Shown piece by piece: positions 455 to 64,000 of a stretch of 64,000 nucleotides of DNA (the stretch's first letter is position 1; each line of letters begins with the position of its first letter). This stretch comes from Nostoc sp. 'Lobaria pulmonaria (5183) cyanobiont' (GTDB lineage: Bacteria; Cyanobacteriota; Cyanobacteriia; Cyanobacteriales; Nostocaceae). Position numbers and translations under genes: made by a program. The notes under the pieces are model-generated. The model made no database searches. It saw only the letters and a list, made by a program, of their open reading frames with translations, and was not told the origin of the DNA. The stretch is from assembly GCF_002949795.1 (NCBI RefSeq), contig NZ_CP026692.1:6556545-6620544 (forward strand), read 5' to 3'.

Positions 455-1237
455 TCAAAATTCCACAATAACTGGTACATGGTCGCTAGGTTGAGTTAAC
501 TTTCTGGGTGCAACATCAATGATGCAACTTGTCGCACGCTCATACAGGATGGGTGTCAGATAGTGATGGTCAATTCGCCAACCTAAGTTACGACGGAAGG
601 CGGCGGAACGATAATCCCACCAGCTATAATTTCCGCCTTCTGTGGTGAATTTGCGAAAAGCATCGGCAAATCCCAGTGTCAGAATATCCCGTAAGGCTTG
701 GCGCTCTGTTTCTGTAGCCATAATGTGATTTTCTGTACTCACTTGCTCGTGAATATCCTTATCTTCCAAGGCGATATTGAAGTCGCCGCACACACAAATT
801 GCGGCTTGTGACAGCACAAGCAATCGCAAATACTCGTGTAGCGCTGTCAACCAGCGCAGTTTGTATTCGTATTTCTCAGTTCCTACCGCTGCGCCATTAG
901 GAACATATAAGTTTATAATCCGAACACTATCAATTACACCTGTAATCACGCGCTTTTGCTCGTCCCATTCGTGATGTAAATCTGGCAAAATCGCCCTAAA
1001 CCCGCTACTAACATCTAGGAGTGGCTGGCGGCTAATCAGGGCTACGCCGTTATAAGATTTTTGTCCTGACATATAAAGGTTATAGCCTAACCGCTCAAAA
1101 GGCGATCGCGGAAATTCAGCATCCACAACTTTGGTTTCTTGCAAGCAGAGAACATCAACCGGATTCAGGGTTAACCAATCGATAACCTGTTCAAGGCGAG
1201 TGCGAATTGAGTTGACGTTCCAAGTAGCGATTTTCAT
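455..1237 (-). CDS. xth: Exodeoxyribonuclease III
   Basis: A 260-residue protein of the exonuclease III/AP endonuclease family, of usual length. It removes nucleotides 3' to 5' and cuts at abasic sites in base excision repair. Visible motifs: N-terminal ATWNVNS with the metal-binding Asn, LCLQETKV with the catalytic Glu at about residue 34, CGDFNIA with the Asp/Asn pair at mid-protein, and C-terminal SDHVPV with the catalytic His. It begins MKIATWNVNS at the expected family start. It stands alone, with a 459-base gap before the next gene on its 5' side. There are no signs of damage. Confidence 0.96.
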   Translation of the reverse strand: MKIATWNVNSIRTRLEQVIDWLTLNPVDVLCLQETKVVDAEFPRSPFERLGYNLYMSGQKSYNGVALISRQPLLDVSSGFRAILPDLHHEWDEQKRVITGVIDSVRIINLYVPNGAAVGTEKYEYKLRWLTALHEYLRLLVLSQAAICVCGDFNIALEDKDIHEQVSTENHIMATETERQALRDILTLGFADAFRKFTTEGGNYSWWDYRSAAFRRNLGWRIDHHYLTPILYERATSCIIDVAPRKLTQPSDHVPVIVEF

Positions 1238-7236: not shown

Positions 7237-8185
7237 TCTTGTGCCTGGATGCGTCAAGATTAGCTAGGGCGTTGCGTCGTAACATTTCTGGCTTAATCCG
7301 CCGCAAGGCAGATGCTGGAAAACGTTTATCCCACTCCCGATCTGAGATTTGGGCTAATTCTAGCAGGTGGGGAGCAATATTCCCAGGATAAGGCTGAAAC
7401 TCTGCAATATCAGTTGTTTGGGCAAAACGCTGATTCCAAGGACAAACATCTTGGCAAATATCGCAACCAGCAACCCAGCCTTGCAAATTAGGTGCGATCG
7501 TCTCTGGCAATTCCTTGTCACGATTTTCTATTGTATGATAAGCAATGCAACGATTAGCATCGACAACAAAAGGCTGAGTAATTGCACCTGTGGGACAAGC
7601 CTGAAGACAACGAGTACAGCTACCACAGTGTTCTGTGTGTGGGCGATCGCTCTCTAATTCTAAATTGGTCAACACTTCTCCCAAAAATACCCAAGAGCCA
7701 TATTCCCGTGTAATTACATTACCATTCTTGGCAATCCAACCAATTCCAGCTTGTTGAGCCAACACTTTATCTTGCACCGGGCCAGTATCTGCATAATAAA
7801 GAGCTAATACGCCTGCATCAAGTGATTTTAGCCATATAGATAGCTGTTTGAGTTTTCTATGCATTACCTTGTGATAATCTCTTCCCCAACCATAACGGGA
7901 AATTTTGGCGTATTCCTCACTTTCAGGACGTTGATGTGGTGTGTAGTAATTCAGCGCTACACACACTAGCGATCGCACCTCTGGCATCACTAAGCGGATA
8001 TCCTGACGCTTTGGATTAGCCATCCATTTCATATCAGCGTGATAACCTAGTTCAATCCATGCTTGCAACCTCTGCGCTTCTGTGGCATTTACCCGATCTA
8101 CAGCAGTAATTCCAACTTTGTGAAAGCCCAACTCGCTGGCTTTTTCTTTCACCAGACTGCTGCTCGTTACAGAATACTGATTCAT
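7211..8185 (-). CDS. queG: Epoxyqueuosine reductase QueG
   Basis: A 324-residue cobalamin/iron-sulfur enzyme that reduces epoxyqueuosine to queuosine in tRNA, the last step of Q34 modification. Two ferredoxin-like clusters are visible: HCGSCTRCLQACPTGAI at about residues 188-204 and GCDICQDVCPWNQRF at about 240-254. The N-terminal half contains the catalytic-domain segments LVCVALNYYTP and RYGWGRDYHKVMHRKL. The length is normal for the short form without HEAT repeats. Its 3' end overlaps the HAD phosphatase start. No other queuosine gene is visible here. Confidence 0.95.
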   Translation of the reverse strand: MNQYSVTSSSLVKEKASELGFHKVGITAVDRVNATEAQRLQAWIELGYHADMKWMANPKRQDIRLVMPEVRSLVCVALNYYTPHQRPESEEYAKISRYGWGRDYHKVMHRKLKQLSIWLKSLDAGVLALYYADTGPVQDKVLAQQAGIGWIAKNGNVITREYGSWVFLGEVLTNLELESDRPHTEHCGSCTRCLQACPTGAITQPFVVDANRCIAYHTIENRDKELPETIAPNLQGWVAGCDICQDVCPWNQRFAQTTDIAEFQPYPGNIAPHLLELAQISDREWDKRFPASALRRIKPEMLRRNALANLDASRHKNDPESNYF

Positions 8186-8423
8186 TTTTTTATCTGGATT
8201 TTGCCCAAATAAAGGTCTAATGAGTATACATTATTTAAATAACATTTTTAATTAATATTTGTTACTTTATCGACATATAGCCTGTCCTAAGCTGCGTAGA
8301 AAATCAAGACTTCCATCGTCAGGAAGATTTATTAAGACGTAGCAATATATCTCAACAGCAGCTTTCTTTTTACCTATTTTTGTATTGAAATTAATATTCA
8401 GATAGCATCATACAGGTGATTTT

Positions 8424-8852
8424 ATGACCTCTGCTGAATTTATATCGCCAGCGCAGTTTGAAGAATTCCAGATTGAGGGAATTACAGAACCAAGCGTACT
8501 GCGTTATTTTGAAACCTTAAATGCAGGAGAATTTGAGGCAACTGCTGCCTTGTTTTCGGTAGATGGTGTGATGCGTCCGCCATTTGAATCTGATATTGTG
8601 GGGACAGATGCGATCGCAGCCTACTTAAAACAAGAAGGTCAAAACATTAAAGCTTACCCCAACACAGGAATAGCCGAGACTGTAGAAAATGGAGATATCC
8701 AAGTCCAGGTAACAGGTAAAGCACAAACTTCGTGGTGTAGTGTCAATGTATTGTGGCTATTTATACTCAACCAACAACAGCAAATTTCTTATACTAGAAT
8801 CAAGCTTTTAGCTTCCCCCAAAGAGTTACTTTCTTTACGTCGTGAAAAGTAA
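8424..8852 (+). CDS. OCP C-terminal domain homologue (CTDH), NTF2-like
   Basis: A 142-residue NTF2-fold protein matching the C-terminal domain of orange carotenoid protein: IEGITEPSVLRYFETLNAGE, DGVMRPPFESDIVG, VTGKAQTSW, and the ending LLASPKELLSL, which closely resembles the OCP end. CTDHs bind a keto-carotenoid as a homodimer and can pass it to apo-HCP. Cys105 in the SWC segment lies where the Anabaena CTDH has the redox-active Cys that controls dimer state. The partner HCP gene is 2.6 kb upstream on the opposite strand, separated by three genes. No ferredoxin-like or OCP gene is present. Confidence 0.9.
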   Translation: MTSAEFISPAQFEEFQIEGITEPSVLRYFETLNAGEFEATAALFSVDGVMRPPFESDIVGTDAIAAYLKQEGQNIKAYPNTGIAETVENGDIQVQVTGKAQTSWCSVNVLWLFILNQQQQISYTRIKLLASPKELLSLRREK

Positions 8853-8997
8853 GTAGCAAATAACTACAAAGGGCAAAGTTTTAAACCAATACTTCTCACC
8901 CAGTCACACAGGATTCATGGCTTTATTCTGGCTCCTGAGTTCTGAATTCGGAATTCTTCCTCATAAATAGCATGATTTGAAAAATAGTAACTTTTGT

Positions 8998-9423
8998 CTA
9001 TTGGACTAATTCGGGTAAAGTAGCTTCTAACTTCAGACAGTTGGCACCATTAACCTGCAACTTGTAATCTACTTTATCCATGAGACGATTCATAATCAGC
9101 CAACCATAACCACCTTCTTGCTTTTCCATCGGGTTTGGAGCGTAGTAGTTAGACATATCAAAGCCTTCGCCGTAATCCCAAATTTCTAGGGCAAAATCCC
9201 GGTCTTTCACTTCCAAGCGCAGTAAAATCGGTAAATTTGGTTGATCCTTATGGGCATGACGGACTGCATTAGAGTAGGCTTCCACTAAAGCCAGTCTCAA
9301 ACGACTTGATTGCCGCGACCAATCTACAGATTCCCCTAGCTGAATTTTCAAACATCCCAACAACCAGTTTTCAACAATATTCAGAAAATTCAAGTCGCTT
9401 GGTACATGAAGCTCACTTTTCAT
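8998..9423 (-). CDS. RsbW-like anti-sigma factor / serine kinase (HATPase_c)
   Basis: A 141-residue GHKL ATPase-fold protein. The N box is LALVEAYSNAVRHAHK, the G1 box is EIWDYGEGFDMSN, and the G2-like segment is GGYGWLIMNRLMD. This is the RsbW/SpoIIAB class, which either holds a sigma factor or phosphorylates an anti-anti-sigma protein. It lies 3 bases after the REC-GAF-SpoIIE phosphatase gene and is surely in one operon with it: kinase and phosphatase would act oppositely on a shared STAS-domain target. That STAS protein is not in the window. Confidence 0.92.
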   Translation of the reverse strand: MKSELHVPSDLNFLNIVENWLLGCLKIQLGESVDWSRQSSRLRLALVEAYSNAVRHAHKDQPNLPILLRLEVKDRDFALEIWDYGEGFDMSNYYAPNPMEKQEGGYGWLIMNRLMDKVDYKLQVNGANCLKLEATLPELVQ

Positions 9424-9426
9424 GAC

Positions 9427-11100
9427 TTACAAAATCTCCAGTGAAAGTATAGTTTGATCGTCTTCTTGAACGTGATTATCTGCCTGGATGCGAGCTAGTA
9501 AATGGTTCAGAGAAAGTGGTTGTTGCTCTTGTTGTAAGAGTTGCCAAAGACCATCTTGATTTAGCATCGAACGGTTCACTGGCTCAACCCCAGCCTCAGT
9601 TGTTCCTGTTGAATTATGATTATTTGATACCATTGCTTCCGTAATTCCATCGCTGGCTAGTAACAATGTGTCTCCAGCAGCGAGAACCAAGCGACCAGAC
9701 TGTGCCTGCCACTTAGGCAAAATCCCCAAAGGAACGCTGCGAACTTTCAGGTAATTGGGATTTTCAGCTAAAGTCGAGCAACGCGACCATAATATTGGAT
9801 AAATATGACCGGCATTAGTGTAGACCAGTTCCTTAGTGCTAGGGGTATAACAAGCTAACACAAGAGTGACAAAATAATTGTTGCTAATTAAATCTTCACT
9901 GAGAGCGTGGTTGAGGTTCTGCATGACCACATTCGGCTCTGCTGGTGTTTCTTGAGATAATTCTCGGCGCAAAACTGAAATAATACTAGCCATAAATAAA
10001 GCTGCTGGGACGCCCTTGCCAGAAACATCACCCACTGCCAACCACAAGTCACCTTTGGGATGGACAAAAACTTCAAAAAAATCGCCTCCGACTTCTCGCG
10101 CCGGATAGCAGCAAGCTTGTACCTTCACACCTTTGATGTCAGGTAAACTTTGGCGTAGCAGGTTGTATTGAATTTGGCGAGCCACCTCTAACTCAGTGTG
10201 AATCTGCTGTTGCTTTTCTTGGAGGCGTTGGTAGAGTTTTGCTTGGGAGAGGGCTAAGGCTGCTTGTTCAGCAACACCTGCAATTAGTTGGATGTCTTCG
10301 TCTTCCCAAGGGCGATCGCGTCCCCATTGGTGCAGGGTTAGCACAGCCAACAGATGCTGATGGTAGCTAAGTGGCACAACTAGGTGATGACCAGGATTAC
10401 CGTTATATATATCTTGAGCAAGTTGATAATGACGGGTTTCCAGCACCTTTTCTATTAAAACACTTGAGTCGAAGAAGCAATCTAATAGATCAGATTTCGG
10501 ATCGCGGTAGAAAAACTCGTCTTGTGTAAGGCGATCGCCCTCTACTGGTTTGAGCAAGCAACTCGTAGCTTCAAATGTTCCTCCAATAGTTGCGACAATT
10601 TTTTGCAGCATACTATCGTAGTCTAAAGATTCCCGAATTGCTGTTGTTACCGCATTAAACAAAGATTCTCGCCGTAGGGCCCGACGTAACTCTTGGGTGC
10701 GCTTCTTAACTAGGCGATATGTATCAGTAGCTTGCTCAACTAAGCTTCTCAGCCGTTCTGGATTCCAGGGTTTGGTAATGTACTTGAATACCTGACCGGA
10801 GTTAATCGCATCTACTAAATCTTCGACATCAGTAAAACCAGTTAACAAAATCCTAATCGTGTCTGGAAAGCGTTCTACGGTGCGACTAAAAAATTCAGTC
10901 CCATTCATTTCTGGCATTCTTTGGTCAGAAATAATTACCGCCATTTCGCCAAATTGATCCAATATCTCCAGAGCACCAAAGGCATGATTGGCTTTATATA
11001 CTTGAAAATCTCGCCTAAAAGTGCGGTAGAGTAAATCTAGGTTATCTGGCTCATCATCTACCACCATGAGTTTAAGTTTGTCCGTACCAATCTCAGCCAT
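9427..11100 (-). CDS. Response regulator with GAF and SpoIIE-type PP2C phosphatase domains
   Basis: A 557-residue protein. Residues 10-125 form a REC receiver with MVVDDEPDNLDLL, the phosphoacceptor Asp in IISDQRMPEMNG, and TKPWNPE as the Lys switch. A GAF domain spans about 155-295 and a coiled-coil linker about 295-325. The SpoIIE/RsbU phosphatase domain (325-557) shows EVGGDFFEVF and LAVGDVSGKGVPAALFMA (metal-binding Asp) and LLLASDGITEAM. It should dephosphorylate an anti-anti-sigma protein when phosphorylated by an unidentified histidine kinase. It is in an operon with the RsbW-like kinase downstream. Confidence 0.94.
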   Translation of the reverse strand: MAEIGTDKLKLMVVDDEPDNLDLLYRTFRRDFQVYKANHAFGALEILDQFGEMAVIISDQRMPEMNGTEFFSRTVERFPDTIRILLTGFTDVEDLVDAINSGQVFKYITKPWNPERLRSLVEQATDTYRLVKKRTQELRRALRRESLFNAVTTAIRESLDYDSMLQKIVATIGGTFEATSCLLKPVEGDRLTQDEFFYRDPKSDLLDCFFDSSVLIEKVLETRHYQLAQDIYNGNPGHHLVVPLSYHQHLLAVLTLHQWGRDRPWEDEDIQLIAGVAEQAALALSQAKLYQRLQEKQQQIHTELEVARQIQYNLLRQSLPDIKGVKVQACCYPAREVGGDFFEVFVHPKGDLWLAVGDVSGKGVPAALFMASIISVLRRELSQETPAEPNVVMQNLNHALSEDLISNNYFVTLVLACYTPSTKELVYTNAGHIYPILWSRCSTLAENPNYLKVRSVPLGILPKWQAQSGRLVLAAGDTLLLASDGITEAMVSNNHNSTGTTEAGVEPVNRSMLNQDGLWQLLQQEQQPLSLNHLLARIQADNHVQEDDQTILSLEIL

Positions 11101-11263
11101 ATTTGACTTGTGTTTTTATATATTTGAATGGCGAGATAATATGATGTTTATCCCACCTAATAAATAAGAGAAAATCAGAGAAGCCATTCACTTTGAAAAT
11201 ATAACTTTTCAAAGTTGTGAGTTTCCCTTGATTATCCTCAATCGATCCACACCAAAATTAAAT

Positions 11264-11989
11264 TTATCCAACTAACCCAGAACGCAAGGCGCGGACTGCT
11301 GCTTGGGTACGGTCATCGGCACATAGCTTATTCAAAATATTACGAACGTGAGTTTTAACAGTGCCAACTGTGATGTAAAGTCTTTCCGCAATTACTGCAT
11401 TACTACAACCTTCGACAATCAACTGTAACACTTCCAATTCCCTTTCTGTCAGGGTGTAAGGTGGAATTTCTTCCAAATTCTCAAAAGAATCTGGGTTAAG
11501 AGCAATAGTCTTAGAATCGACCAAAGCCGATTCCAACTTTTGAGGATTTTGTTGCGCTTGTTGTAATACAATCCGAGCGATCGCTGGATCGATCCAGGCG
11601 TTGCCATTGTAAGTTACTCGCACTGCTTCCAGCAAATTATCGAATTTGATATCTTTCATACAGTAAGAGTCTGCACCAGCAGCAAAAGCTGCCAATACCG
11701 CTTCTTTGTTATCCCGCAGCGTCAAAATTAACACTTTTGTGAGTAGCTGCTGTGCATTAGTAGTAGATTTTACCTCCCGTGTTAATTCAATGCCATCCTT
11801 ATCTGGTAAACCAATATCTACAATTGCAATATCTGGTTGTAGCATTTTTAACATTTTTAGACCCTCAGCAGCATTAGCAGCTTCACCTACAACTTCAATT
11901 TCATCCTTTTGCTGTAGTGCTGTGCGAATACCCACACGAGTTAGGTCATGATCTTCAATCAGAGCGATACGAATTTTACTCATAGCCAA
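11264..11989 (-). CDS. NarL/LuxR-family response regulator
   Basis: A 241-residue two-domain regulator. REC domain: RIALIEDHDLTRVGI with the acidic pair, IAIVDIGLPDKDG with the phosphorylated Asp at about residue 57, and the Thr and Lys switch positions in LILTLRDN and MKDIKF. The C-terminal LuxR-type helix-turn-helix is at about 175-235 (LTERELEVLQLIVEGCSNAVIAERLYI in two helices, then VGTVKTHVRNIL). It binds DNA on phosphorylation. No histidine kinase is adjacent. It precedes the REC-GAF-SpoIIE gene on the same strand with a 163-base gap and may have its own promoter. Confidence 0.94.
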   Translation of the reverse strand: MAMSKIRIALIEDHDLTRVGIRTALQQKDEIEVVGEAANAAEGLKMLKMLQPDIAIVDIGLPDKDGIELTREVKSTTNAQQLLTKVLILTLRDNKEAVLAAFAAGADSYCMKDIKFDNLLEAVRVTYNGNAWIDPAIARIVLQQAQQNPQKLESALVDSKTIALNPDSFENLEEIPPYTLTERELEVLQLIVEGCSNAVIAERLYITVGTVKTHVRNILNKLCADDRTQAAVRALRSGLVG

Positions 11990-12406
11990 CTTCAGCCCGT
12001 TACACTATAACCATAAAGTCGAGTTTCGTGACATATTCCCACACTAACTGCAAGCAGTATAGTGGGGGCTTCTATTCCCGGAACCAGAGTTGCGAGTTGA
12101 GCGTTTTATACTGAGTGAATATTACACTTTAACAAGAAAAGTTGGACTGGTTCAGTCCCAGTACAAGCGCCCAAGATTAATAGACAGATGAGTGAAATTA
12201 ATTATGTATTACCTAAAACCCTTGTATATACTTAGCAGTGCTACGTATATACATTCTTGTTCACTCTTATGTCTATTTAGTTTAATTATGCTTTCTCTCG
12301 TGGCAGGGCAAAGGGGAATCTCTTTTGCCTAAGTTCTAATATAAAAAAATTTGATAAACTTAACATTCATGCAAAATCTGGTGTGAGTATTACTTAAGAA
12401 TAGGCT
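11990..12406. other. Intergenic region between divergent genes
   Basis: No gene seen. It contains AT-rich promoter-like DNA and two short related runs, TTGTATATAC and CTACGTATATACATTC, around 12225-12257. It separates the NarL regulator (minus) from the WecG/TagA transferase (plus). Confidence 0.55.
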
Positions 12407-13162
12407 ATGTCTAACGGCAATCAAGCATTTTCAGTGTTGGGAATACCAGTTCATGTGATGGCTGACTATCCAGGCTGGTTGTTAGAATGCCTGCACACAG
12501 GCAAAGGAACCCATGTCGTAACGCTCAATGCAGAAATGACTATGCAAGCAGAGCGAAATCAATTATTAGCTCAGGTGATTAAAAATGCTGAACTAGTGAT
12601 TCCAGATGGAGCCGGGGTTGTTCTGTATTTACGATGGCTGTTATGGCAAAAAGTGCAGCGTTTTCCAGGGATTGAATTAGCAGAAAAACTTTTGCAAGCC
12701 CTTGGGCAACAAAAGACAGGGGCTAAGATATTTTTCTATGGAGGAGCGCCTGGAGTGGCTGCAAAAACGGCAGATTTTTGGCAGCAGCAAATTCCAGATT
12801 TGAGTATAGTAGGCACTCACTCAGGCTACCATTCCCCAGAAGAAGAAGCACAATTGCGGCAAACTCTGGCTCAATTGCAGCCACAAGTGATTTTTGTCGG
12901 TTTGGGGGTGCCGCGTCAAGAGTTATGGATTGCCGAAAACCGCCATTTGTGTCCTCAAGCAATTTGGATTGGCGTTGGTGGCAGTTTTGATATTTGGTCG
13001 GGAACTAAAACTCGCGCTCCCGCCTGGTTAGGAAATAATAATTTGGAATGGTTGTATCGCCTTTATCAAGAACCTTGGCGCTGGCGAAGGATGTTGGCTT
13101 TGCCAGCATTTGCGGTGAAAGCGTTTGTTTATCGATTGACAGCAAGGGGTGCAATTAGTTAA
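12407..13162 (+). CDS. WecG/TagA/CpsF family glycosyltransferase
   Basis: A 251-residue GT26-family enzyme, the type that adds N-acetylmannosamine or glucose-type residues to lipid-linked sugars for polysaccharide assembly. Visible signs are VTLNAEMTMQAERN near residue 38, the catalytic-loop Asp in LVIPDGAGVVL, IFFYGGAPGVA, VIFVGLGVPRQELWIAEN and WIGVGGSFDIWSG. The C-terminal tail, rich in Trp, Arg and aromatic residues, probably touches the membrane. No other polysaccharide gene is adjacent. The exact sugar cannot be told. Confidence 0.92.
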   Translation: MSNGNQAFSVLGIPVHVMADYPGWLLECLHTGKGTHVVTLNAEMTMQAERNQLLAQVIKNAELVIPDGAGVVLYLRWLLWQKVQRFPGIELAEKLLQALGQQKTGAKIFFYGGAPGVAAKTADFWQQQIPDLSIVGTHSGYHSPEEEAQLRQTLAQLQPQVIFVGLGVPRQELWIAENRHLCPQAIWIGVGGSFDIWSGTKTRAPAWLGNNNLEWLYRLYQEPWRWRRMLALPAFAVKAFVYRLTARGAIS

Positions 13163-60993: not shown

Positions 60994-61062
60994 GGAAGCG
61001 ATCGCTATTCATGAATCAGGCGTTTACTAAATCTATTGCAAAAGTCAATTGGATGAAAATAT

Positions 61063-61097
61063 AACCACAGATAAATATCCATGAATTATCTGTGGTT
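61063..61097 (+). terminator. Terminator after pheS
   Basis: A perfect 12-bp stem AACCACAGATAA/TTATCTGTGGTT with an 11-base loop, followed by TT. It starts 70 bases after the pheS stop. Confidence 0.85.
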
Positions 61098-61162
61098 TTA
61101 AATAATAGACTAAGATTGATGAATTTGGTAAACTATCATTACGTAACTTTTGTTGACGTGAT

Positions 61163-61738
61163 ATGACTGCAATCACTGGCAAACATCTAAGGCTTGAGGA
61201 ATATTTGAAGTATGACGATGGCACGGATAGCCAGTATGAACTGGTGGCAGGTGAGTTAGTTGCCATGCCACCCGAAAGCCCAAAAAATGTTCAGATATCT
61301 CTTTTTTTGCTGGTAAATTTCCTCAAGTTCGTCCCGTTCAATCGGTTGAGTAACAAAGCTGAAATTGTTGTTGCTGGTTCTCGTGCGACAACTCGCATTC
61401 CTGACTTAGTTGTGCTGACGGATGACCTTGCAACAGCCTTAGAAGGTGCAACGCGATCCACAATCACTGTGGATATGCCACCTCCAGCATTAGTTGTCGA
61501 AGTTGTTTCTCCTGGCAAAGCTAACGAAGATCGGGACTATCGCTACAAACGTTCCGAGTATGCCGCTAGGGGAATTGCTGAATATTGGATTGTTGATCCA
61601 CAAATGAACAGAGTCACCGTACTGATATTAGTTGACGGGTTTTATGAAGAAACCAGATTTGCAGGAAATACTGCGATCGCATCTACTATTTTCCCAGAGT
61701 TACAGCTAACAGCAGAGCAAGTACTAAATGCTGGATAA
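61163..61738 (+). CDS. Uma2 family endonuclease-like protein (DUF820)
   Basis: A 191-residue PD-(D/E)XK-fold protein of the Uma2/DUF820 family, expanded in cyanobacteria. Signs: YELVAGELVAMPPESPKNVQ, the catalytic region RIPDLVVLTDDLA (Asp), PALVVEVVSPGKANEDRDYR (ExVSP with Glu and downstream Lys/Arg), and GIAEYWIVDPQMNRVTVLI. A nuclease role is assumed from the fold, and the biological function is unknown. It begins an accessory patch with the reverse transcriptase. Confidence 0.9.
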   Translation: MTAITGKHLRLEEYLKYDDGTDSQYELVAGELVAMPPESPKNVQISLFLLVNFLKFVPFNRLSNKAEIVVAGSRATTRIPDLVVLTDDLATALEGATRSTITVDMPPPALVVEVVSPGKANEDRDYRYKRSEYAARGIAEYWIVDPQMNRVTVLILVDGFYEETRFAGNTAIASTIFPELQLTAEQVLNAG

Positions 61739-61952
61739 AGCAATGCGGTTAAAAGGCAGACAGACGAAATGATTTTAGAGGTGCGATCGCTCAGTTTTCT
61801 TGCGTAGTTGCAGCTGAAAGAGCTTCTTTAACGTACAAAAGCCTTTCTTGAGTATAGTTACTCCATTCTATTAACTGCAATTACGATTGCTTTCGTCTCG
61901 ATTTCAGGGCAACATATCTTATAGTAAATCCTGTAATCCTAAGATACTAAAG

Positions 61953-63506
61953 ATGAATAGAAGAGATTTAATAGCTAGAGGATATCTCCCAAAAGAACTA
62001 CCTCCTCCTTTTAATACAATTTCCCTTGCTGACTTTGCTACTTGTAGTAAAATATCGTTTCCACGTTACCCTAAGAAAACTGCAAAAATTTATAGTCATA
62101 ATCATATTAGATATAACTCATTAAGAAGAAATTTAGGTATTCCAAATCCAGTATTTTTCTTAGAAATTTCTGATTTGTTAGATAGTAATTGGTCTACAAT
62201 TAATCAAATAACAAAACGTTCCAATTTTTCCAAAAGTAAGCCTACTTATACCCCCCTTCCACAGCGGGAACGTTCTATTTCACCTGTACTTGATTTCTAC
62301 TTAATTCCTGTTGAAAGAGCTAAAAATAGAATAGCAGGAAGATATATATTACATACAGACATTTCTCGATTTTATCAATCTATTTACACTCATAGTATTC
62401 CTTGGGCAATACATGGGAAATCATTGGCTAAACAACAGAGAAATGACATGACTCTTCTGGGAAATAATCTTGATAAAATTTTGAGAAATAGTCAAGATGG
62501 TCAAACGCTAGGTATTCCTATTGGGCCAGATACTTCATTAGTCATTGCCGAACTGATACTTTGTACAACAGATATAGAACTAGAAAAGCGATTAAAAAGC
62601 ACTTGTAGTTATCCATTTAAAGGCTTCCGTTATAGTGATGATTATGAGTTTGTATTTCAAAATATTTCAGATGCTGAATCAGCTTTAAGCCAAATTCAAC
62701 AGGTACTTTCCGAGTTTGAATTGACTATCAACTCTGAGAAAACCAAAATTATTGAGTTACCGTGTTCTTTGGATTCAATATGGGTTTTAGAACTATCTGA
62801 CTATAAATTTAGCGAAAGTAGGCTTACACAAATGCAAGATATTATTCGTTATTTTGATAAAGCATTTCAACTTATAAATGAATTTCCTGGGGAACCAGTA
62901 CTTAAATATGCAGTTGCACGAATTAGTAATATTAACAATCTTGACATAGAGAATTGGCCTCTTCTTGAAAGCCTTCTCTTACAGTCAATTACTATTGAAC
63001 CTAGTACTTTACGTGATTCTCTTTCAATAATTCAAGAAAAGAAGGTAAACAAATATAACATTAACTTATCCTTGCTTGAAGAAGTTATTAACTTTCAAAT
63101 CTACAGAAATGCAATACTTGGACATAGCAGTGAAGTAGCTTGGGCTATTTGGTCAGCAATGGTATTTGACTTATCAATTAACAAGCTAGCTACAGAGTCT
63201 ATTTCTAAAATGGAAGATTCTATAGTAGCAATTTTAGCTTTAAATGCACGTAAGCAAGGACAGATTAAAGAAAGTTTAGATACAAGTACATGGGAACAAT
63301 TTTTAAATGAAGATGAACTTTATGGTGAGCAATGGCTCCTTTGTTATGAAGCTAATCTACAAGGGCATTTATCTAAAGGAGTCGATTATGTATCTAAAGA
63401 TCCTTGGTTTTCTCTGCTAAAGGATAATGGCATTACTTTTTATGGAAGTAAGACTCCTTTAGTTATTCCGCCAAGCTCTACTAGTGGTCCCTCTGGTAGA
63501 TTCTGA
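61953..63506 (+). CDS. Stand-alone reverse transcriptase, UG/Abi (DRT-like) type
   Basis: 517 residues from the ATG at 61953 (MNRRDLIARGYLPKELPPPF). The RT core shows LHTDISRFYQSIYTHSIPWA (catalytic Asp at about 136), LGIPIGPDTSLVIAELIL, and FRYSDDYEFVF (catalytic YSDD at about 227-230), then LTINSEKTKIIELP (the INxxKT segment). There are no maturase, HNH or integrase parts, so it is not a group II intron protein. No retron msr/msd or CRISPR genes are adjacent. From about residue 275 on the protein is helical, like the alpha-repeat half of abortive-infection RTs. YTHSIPWA...GK fits the UG/Abi class as I recall it. Subtype not assigned. It is AT-rich without HIP1, suggesting transfer. Confidence 0.88.
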   Translation: MNRRDLIARGYLPKELPPPFNTISLADFATCSKISFPRYPKKTAKIYSHNHIRYNSLRRNLGIPNPVFFLEISDLLDSNWSTINQITKRSNFSKSKPTYTPLPQRERSISPVLDFYLIPVERAKNRIAGRYILHTDISRFYQSIYTHSIPWAIHGKSLAKQQRNDMTLLGNNLDKILRNSQDGQTLGIPIGPDTSLVIAELILCTTDIELEKRLKSTCSYPFKGFRYSDDYEFVFQNISDAESALSQIQQVLSEFELTINSEKTKIIELPCSLDSIWVLELSDYKFSESRLTQMQDIIRYFDKAFQLINEFPGEPVLKYAVARISNINNLDIENWPLLESLLLQSITIEPSTLRDSLSIIQEKKVNKYNINLSLLEEVINFQIYRNAILGHSSEVAWAIWSAMVFDLSINKLATESISKMEDSIVAILALNARKQGQIKESLDTSTWEQFLNEDELYGEQWLLCYEANLQGHLSKGVDYVSKDPWFSLLKDNGITFYGSKTPLVIPPSSTSGPSGRF

Positions 63507-63671
63507 CTTTGACAATTTGATTTAACCTCTTAACACTAGTATTTGGCGAGAAACTCTTCTGCGATCGCATCCCTTGATCAAGCGATTTTCTAGTCTGGCA
63601 AACCAGCCTGCTGCTGACCATAACTATTGGTAAACTAAAGGCAACGCCAGTTCTGCTGAGTGATTTATTCT

Positions 63672-63965
63672 ATGTTCGCTGAAACCTCCTCGCGCTACGT
63701 TACCCGTAACCCTGAAATTTTGAGTGGAGAGCCAATTATTATAGGTACTCGGACATCTGTTCGTGCCATTGTCGGTTTGTGGCGGTTGGGGATTATGCCA
63801 GAAGAAATCCTGAACCATTTGCCACATTTGACGCTGGCACAAGTGTTTGATGCCTTGAGTTTTTATCTCGATCATCAAACCGAAATTAATGAATACATTG
63901 AGCGAAACCGAGTACCCGATGAATTAATACACCCATCTGTAAAAGCTATATTGGGGACATCGTGA
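63672..63965 (+). CDS. DUF433 domain-containing antitoxin-like protein
   Basis: About 97 residues, starting at the ATG at 63672 (MFAETSSRYVTRNPEILSGE), though a GTG lies 12 bases earlier. The DUF433 core is EPIIIGTRTSVRAIVGLWRL and PEEILNHLPHLTLAQVFDAL, a winged-helix-like domain found in VapB45-type antitoxins. Its stop overlaps the next start (TCGTGA), the usual layout with a DUF5615 PIN-like toxin. It lies 165 bases after the reverse transcriptase on the same strand. Confidence 0.88.
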   Translation: MFAETSSRYVTRNPEILSGEPIIIGTRTSVRAIVGLWRLGIMPEEILNHLPHLTLAQVFDALSFYLDHQTEINEYIERNRVPDELIHPSVKAILGTS

Positions 63966-64000
63966 CGGTTTTTGCTGCACTTTACAATGATGAGGATATG
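63962..64000 (+). CDS. DUF5615 PIN-like toxin, 5' fragment at window edge
   Basis: GTG start at 63962 overlapping the DUF433 stop. It reads MTVFAALYNDEDM and then leaves the window. The Asp/Glu in YNDEDM match the opening of DUF5615 PIN-like proteins (typically FAALYxDEDV). It is probably an RNase-type toxin partner of the DUF433 protein. The rest cannot be seen. Confidence 0.7.
   Translation, partial: MTVFAALYNDEDM

Follow-up and report, generated by a model that had tools for sequence, protein, structure and literature searches.

A DRT6/UG12 reverse transcriptase of a distinct cyanobacterial branch, carried at a gene-exchange hotspot in Nostoc

Near the end of a 64,000-nucleotide stretch of Nostoc sp. 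'Lobaria pulmonaria (5183) cyanobiont' (contig NZ_CP026692.1, positions 6,556,545 to 6,620,544; hereafter the window), a gene for a reverse transcriptase (RT) stands among accessory genes. To which family does this RT belong, and would it act alone? A preliminary description of the window read the product, here called P0001, as a solitary UG/Abi-type RT with a candidate role against phages, perhaps from a subgroup not yet assigned and perhaps served by an adjacent non-coding RNA. We find that the gene at 61953-63506 is a real, intact DRT6, of a family that is itself ordinary, and we put at about 80% the probability that it constitutes a single-gene DRT6 (UG12) antiphage system. The basis for this reading is the sequence, the predicted fold, an intact active site, the absence of a branch-wide partner from the loci compared and a sporadic distribution.

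An intact reverse transcriptase of the DRT6 family

The gene is a single uninterrupted ATG-to-stop frame (Table 1). A longer start is available at a TTG at 61887; the methionine encoded at 61953 is the start in 16 of 19 alignment rows from the cyanobacterial branch described below (P0001 counted), with two rows longer and one shorter. The motif strings quoted in the preliminary description, TDISRFYQSIYTHS, YSDD and INSEKTK, are all found in the translation, and the catalytic triad of D136, D229 and D230 is intact. Across 197 aligned rows, some of which are one protein taken from two sources, conservation is 100% at D136, D229, H147, K160, Q184, R226, K263 and W461 and 97% at D230. Pfam returns an RVT_1 match of 36 bits, and the predicted structure, made from an alignment of 92 of the 121 collected proteins, is confident, with helices from about residue 276 to 491 that bear out the helical C-terminal region described earlier; the last 7 residues fall below 50 in predicted local distance difference test score. 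A scan for promoters and terminators gave matches no more numerous than in shuffled sequence.

It is very unlikely that the gene is an inactive or domesticated relic retained for some other role: the frame is full-length, all catalytic residues are present, and the ratio of non-synonymous to synonymous substitution rates (dN/dS) is 0.16 against the gene for a 94%-identical protein in a second Nostoc genome (G020), indicating purifying selection. The other valid pairs gave 0.46, 0.15, 0.08 and 0.18, so that four of five comparisons lie between 0.08 and 0.18. A relic would fit the sister copy in a further genome (G043), which is broken and retains residues 1-218 and 429-517 only, and also the rarity of the gene in the phylum, where 4 of 386 genomes match at E 1e-40 and two of these carry branch members.

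Profiles and structure comparisons place P0001 in a known family. In PADLOC, the Drt6 model (PDLC03748), which we take to be equivalent to UG12, ranks first among 68 families at 579 bits, followed by two models labelled Drt4, PDLC02177 (568) and PDLC02179 (528), and, well below, by PDLC03752 (282), PDLC02178 (262), UG30 (240), PDLC02180 (239), UG14 (183) and AbiK (167). As controls we scored the aligned chain parts of a solved DRT6 (PDB 9wy8) and a solved UG15 enzyme (21ou). The DRT6 chain gave PDLC02179 722, Drt6 600 and PDLC03752 253; the UG15 chain gave PDLC02180 618, PDLC03752 512 and Drt6 260. Because the score pattern of P0001 is that of 9wy8 and opposite to that of 21ou, P0001 sides with DRT6. 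The Drt4 labels are accordingly no conflict, since the solved DRT6 itself best matches PDLC02179, which makes PDLC02177 and PDLC02179 DRT6-like models; for all 20 relatives scanned, the top model was Drt6, PDLC02177 or PDLC02179. More generally, these two Drt4-named models score DRT6-family proteins, the solved DRT6 included, higher than the UG15 model does, and PADLOC 'Drt4' calls on such genes may be DRT6 instead.

P0001 also matches the full-length fold of the solved DRT6, a hexamer. DRT4/UG15 (PDB 9vdo, 9l9s, 21ou) is the weaker match both in sequence (105 bits versus 273 for 9wy8) and in profile (PDLC03752 282 versus Drt6 579). AbiK and Abi-P2, and more distantly AbiA, have the same arrangement of an RT followed by a helical domain. 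P0001 is a full-length member of the known DRT6/UG12 family; the profiles, structure matches and both controls rule out an unassigned UG subgroup, and the suggestion of one does not hold, as the family has a solved structure that P0001 matches along its full length. That the gene encodes a solitary UG/Abi-type RT belonging to a defence family, as first described, still stands.

So does the earlier exclusion of other RT classes. All share the RT palm, and P0001 reaches 48 bits with a group II intron profile and 40 bits with that of retron St85, figures far under the respective cut-offs of 300 and 235. No profile for diversity-generating retroelement RTs was among its Pfam or NCBIfam matches. 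Structures of group II intron, retron and diversity-generating retroelement RTs score a template-modelling value of 0.35 or less by query length among the 50 matches listed, and a second structure comparison aligned at most 308 residues with them. We regard an origin from any of the three as virtually negligible.

No common partner or non-coding RNA seen in the branch

Some defence RTs, such as DRT2 and DRT9, depend on RNA, and the intergenic DNA on either side of the gene (214 and about 150 bases) could in principle hold an unrecognised non-coding RNA. P0001 does not match the full-length fold of DRT2/DRT9. A search with Rfam returned one hit, at 21.3 bits under a cut-off of 33, and folding z-scores of -0.23 and -0.75 for the two flanks are nothing unusual. 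In comparisons run without a positive control from a known non-coding RNA system, the window flanks gave no DNA-level match to any of the five other branch members examined, and no partner or RNA common to all six branch loci was seen; over 700-base flanks, the only matches were those within the close Calothrix/Rivularia pair, together with a downstream coding gene that this pair has in common with Scytonema. The proposed non-coding RNA in 61739-61952 or 63507-63671 is thus not supported by Rfam, folding or flank comparison, under the same limit, and an RNA-dependent enzyme at this locus is highly improbable.

Protein partners among the immediate neighbours fare no better. An operon with the Uma2 or DUF433 gene is rejected because relatives have other neighbours or cargo at that place. 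The accessory character of the neighbours noted earlier is real, Pfam confirming Uma2, DUF433 and DUF5615, yet it reflects a gene-exchange hotspot and not a shared operon.

A cyanobacterial branch with its own C-terminal tail

Relatives were drawn from 120 of 2471 homologues, and 80 of 106 confirmed loci were retained. Within a broad family (94-row quick tree), the named members of the P0001 branch are all cyanobacteria, from Nostoc, Scytonema, Calothrix, Rivularia, Kastovskya and Phormidesmis. A careful tree of 30 rows gives a support of 100/99 to the group of six rows that spans P0015 to P0001. Its ingroup of 29 contains 9wy8, with UG15 as sole outgroup on a branch of length 4.14; because a lone outgroup on so long a branch sets the root, this tree is no test of the grouping of 9wy8 apart from UG15.

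The branch is marked by a C-terminal tail with the motif GPSG, present in 26 of 26 branch rows and in 0 of the 171 other rows of the 197-row alignment (the aligned part of 9wy8, one of the 171, ends before any tail). The motif is missing from P0022 and P0024, the sister rows closest to the branch. Two fragments lie outside the 197 rows: P0021 has GPSG, and the shorter P0019 stops ahead of the tail position.

The gene is sporadic. Within its own genome P0001 has a single match at an E value of 0.001 or less, and at that level it matches in 10 of 53 genomes of the genus, weak RT matches counted. Branch members occur in 4 of the 53, intact in the present genome (G000), G020 and G050 (94.8% nucleotide identity) and broken in G043, all at the same site between pheS and a peptidase gene. 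In Kastovskya and Phormidesmis the neighbours are genes for a permease and a cytochrome, or else mfd and phoH. A second DRT6-like lineage exists in the genus (G020, G022 and G052), also DRT6-type in PADLOC (G022 and G020 copies scanned); it differs in being about 39-43% identical to P0001, in lying elsewhere in the tree and in lacking the GPSG tail. G020 carries both lineages (L002 and L011), with one protein 94% and the other 39-43% identical to P0001.

Carriage by plasmids or phages is dismissed: no near match of the gene was found on plasmids, and the protein relatives in 211 plasmid and 9 phage records are all below 60% identity. IMG/VR contigs hold three relatives, at 33-41%. Among the matches listed in literature searches on DRT6/UG12, DRT4/UG15, Abi enzymes and cyanobacterial DRTs, there was no study of a cyanobacterial DRT6.

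Proposed mechanism

P0001 has the parts needed for template-free, protein-primed synthesis, for which AbiK and Abi-P2 are the model. By analogy, the enzyme probably kills phage-infected cells by means of useless single-stranded DNA. The RT would assemble as a hexamer, as in the solved DRT6, and would add nucleotides to one of its own residues without a nucleic-acid template, yielding single-stranded DNA that is attached to the protein and largely random in sequence; its helical domain would replace the template strand and hold the hexamer together, as in AbiK. Host exonucleases would normally clear the product. On infection, a phage DNA-binding protein of the ORF55 kind would shield it, so that the DNA accumulates, the cell stops and the infection is aborted.

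Published accounts describe such a scheme. A 2026 review (PMC13213688) treats both DRT4 and DRT6 as systems of a single gene and states that DRT4 makes random single-stranded DNA without a template, that phage ORF55 protects its 3′ end and that ORF55 activates DRT6 also; a second (PMC13314766) gives much the same account of the two. For AbiK, PMC9508834 describes attachment of the DNA to Tyr44 and a helical domain that acts as a substitute for the template.

Several observations weigh against a single-gene DRT6 acting in this way. First, P0001 is just 33-34% identical to 9wy8, and an NCBIfam scan of P0001 gave no DRT6 model, with the Drt4 equivalog reaching 271.9 bits under a cut-off of 450. 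Second, PMC13213688 rates the chemistry of the DRT6 product as less well resolved than that of DRT4. Third, there is no clear priming tyrosine. In the stretch corresponding to the AbiK N terminus, Tyr39, Tyr47 and Tyr54 are conserved at 15% or less of the 197 rows, and any tyrosine at positions 20-58 is found in 120 of 196 scorable rows; Tyr11 is tyrosine in 86% of rows, but phenylalanine in 9wy8. Tyr145, Tyr465 and Tyr497, which are 94-98% conserved and present in 9wy8 too, are candidates from the alignment. Fourth, the Calothrix, Rivularia and Scytonema loci (3 of 6) have four downstream genes in common, the first without a Pfam match, so that a local partner is possible in those three; the four genes are not present at the window, Kastovskya or Phormidesmis loci. 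Finally, at the hotspot that holds the gene, 5 of 8 proteins had no PADLOC match, and a chromate transporter forms a common cargo cluster.

A different product is also conceivable. Drt3b, a Class 1 relative, produces alternating repeats without a nucleic-acid template, according to PMC13174585, and a DRT6-fold enzyme might likewise make protein-patterned, non-random DNA, perhaps under the guidance of residues specific to the branch or of the tail, which is private to a supported cyanobacterial clade (26 of 197 rows). We consider this improbable: our analysis indicated no sequence bias, and random DNA is what DRT4 and AbiK, the nearest relatives to have been studied, produce.

A gene-exchange hotspot between pheS and an S9 peptidase gene

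The RT gene has a Uma2 gene on one side and a DUF433/DUF5615 pair on the other; the whole group is bounded by pheS upstream and a gene for an S9 peptidase downstream. Its guanine-plus-cytosine content of 0.328, versus 0.418 for the window, confirms the AT-rich composition reported earlier, and the gene would have come into the genome as AT-rich cargo at this site. It is true, as also reported, that the gene contains no HIP1 site, the nearest octamers being at 61783 and 63561; this carries little weight for a foreign origin, because, of the window's 63 intervals from one HIP1 site to the next, 13 span at least 1770 bases.

Table 1. Positions of the reverse transcriptase gene, its parts and features around it (window coordinates unless a locus is named; +, forward strand)
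Feature	Position	Strand	Basis or remark
Reverse transcriptase P0001, 517 amino acids, assigned to DRT6/UG12	61953..63506	+	translation, profiles, alignment, model, structure matches
Layout of P0001	residues ~1-275; ~276-491; 500-517		fingers/palm RT; helical part; tail
Catalytic Asp136 codon (TDIS motif)	62358..62360	+	translation; 100% in 197 rows
Catalytic Asp229-Asp230 codons (YSDD motif)	62637..62642	+	100% and 97% in 197 rows
C-terminal tail, residues 500-517, with GPSG	63450..63503	+	alignment, model
Uma2-family putative nuclease, upstream neighbour (PADLOC candidate family PDC-S03)	61163..61738	+	Pfam, PADLOC
Uma2 3′ end, begins at HIP1 octamer (61673)	61671..61738	+	copies recur in hotspot of related genomes
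Diverged copy (84.6%) of a portion of the 3′ end of the S9 peptidase gene that lies downstream, HIP1 octamer at 63561	63538..63602		repeat just past the RT gene
DUF433 protein, next cargo	63660..63965	+	Pfam; DUF5615 gene follows, extending beyond window end
Four common downstream genes	L068, L069, L070 (Calothrix, Scytonema, Rivularia), from ~7650 to 12800

We compared the peptidase 3′ flank of 20 of the 53 genus genomes, chosen among strong peptidase matches, with the window locus. In all 21 loci the pheS-S9 peptidase interval (window 60994-64000; L047-L066) keeps both flanking genes and its cargo, which takes in toxin-antitoxin genes, varies: Uma2 in 11 loci, DUF433, YafQ-like and chromate transporter in 7 each, DUF4926 in 5 and DRT6 in 4, of which one is broken, besides many singletons. 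The counts are of clusters of frames at least 80 amino acids long, each named from one scanned member. Pfam on 10 of the 13 scanned hotspot proteins gave YafQ, BrnT, HEPN, GmrSD and others, and PADLOC on 8 of the 13 gave strong NsnA-like and Uma2 matches and a weak HEPN match. The interval is a gene-exchange hotspot for accessory, toxin and defence genes. In one genome (G005) it holds a GmrSD_N/NsnA-like gene followed directly by a HEPN_MAE_28990 gene (L060, 4132-5960); the two might together form a defence system.

Additional copies of the peptidase 3′ end lie in 12 of the 21 loci (including the window copy, L062 at 8307-8415, L064, L065 and L066). By eye, 7 of the 21 have such a copy fused to one of the Uma2 3′ end; the change-over falls within an intact HIP1 octamer, GCGATCGC, in 4 of these 7. 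PMC4390886 records two reports that link the octamer to site-specific or illegitimate recombination, and no evidence for a link to homologous recombination. Plain microhomology of 8-10 shared bases is an equally good reading of these junctions as recombination driven by HIP1. In two hotspot loci (L061 near 5188 and L059 near 4625) the HIP1 place is broken by a short repeat (..GTAGGCGTAGCCCGTCGTAGACATCGC), which perhaps resembles the insertion of SDR5 into HIP1 mentioned in PMC4390886. Elsewhere in the locus set, a 130-amino-acid frame of repeated EYKRL(I/V) units overlaps the 3′ end of a recQ-like gene (L016, 11083-11475).

Tail and hotspot may be combined in a speculative and rather unlikely proposal, that the DRT6 enzymes of the cyanobacterial branch form a functional variant. 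Their conserved, partly disordered SGPSG tail would dock a cyanobacterial or cyanophage DNA-binding protein that takes the role of ORF55 and switches the enzyme on, and the gene would spread by recombination at HIP1 octamers in duplicated gene ends within a defence hotspot.

Implications

A putatively antiphage DRT6 enzyme with an intact active site and a confident predicted structure is now placed in filamentous cyanobacteria. Two leads from it deserve to be pursued: the tail that is specific to its branch, and the hotspot marked by HIP1. The tail is a concrete handle on how such single-gene systems are triggered. The hotspot is a place to seek further cyanobacterial defence genes, and its junctions are testable cases for the old question of a role for HIP1 octamers in recombination.
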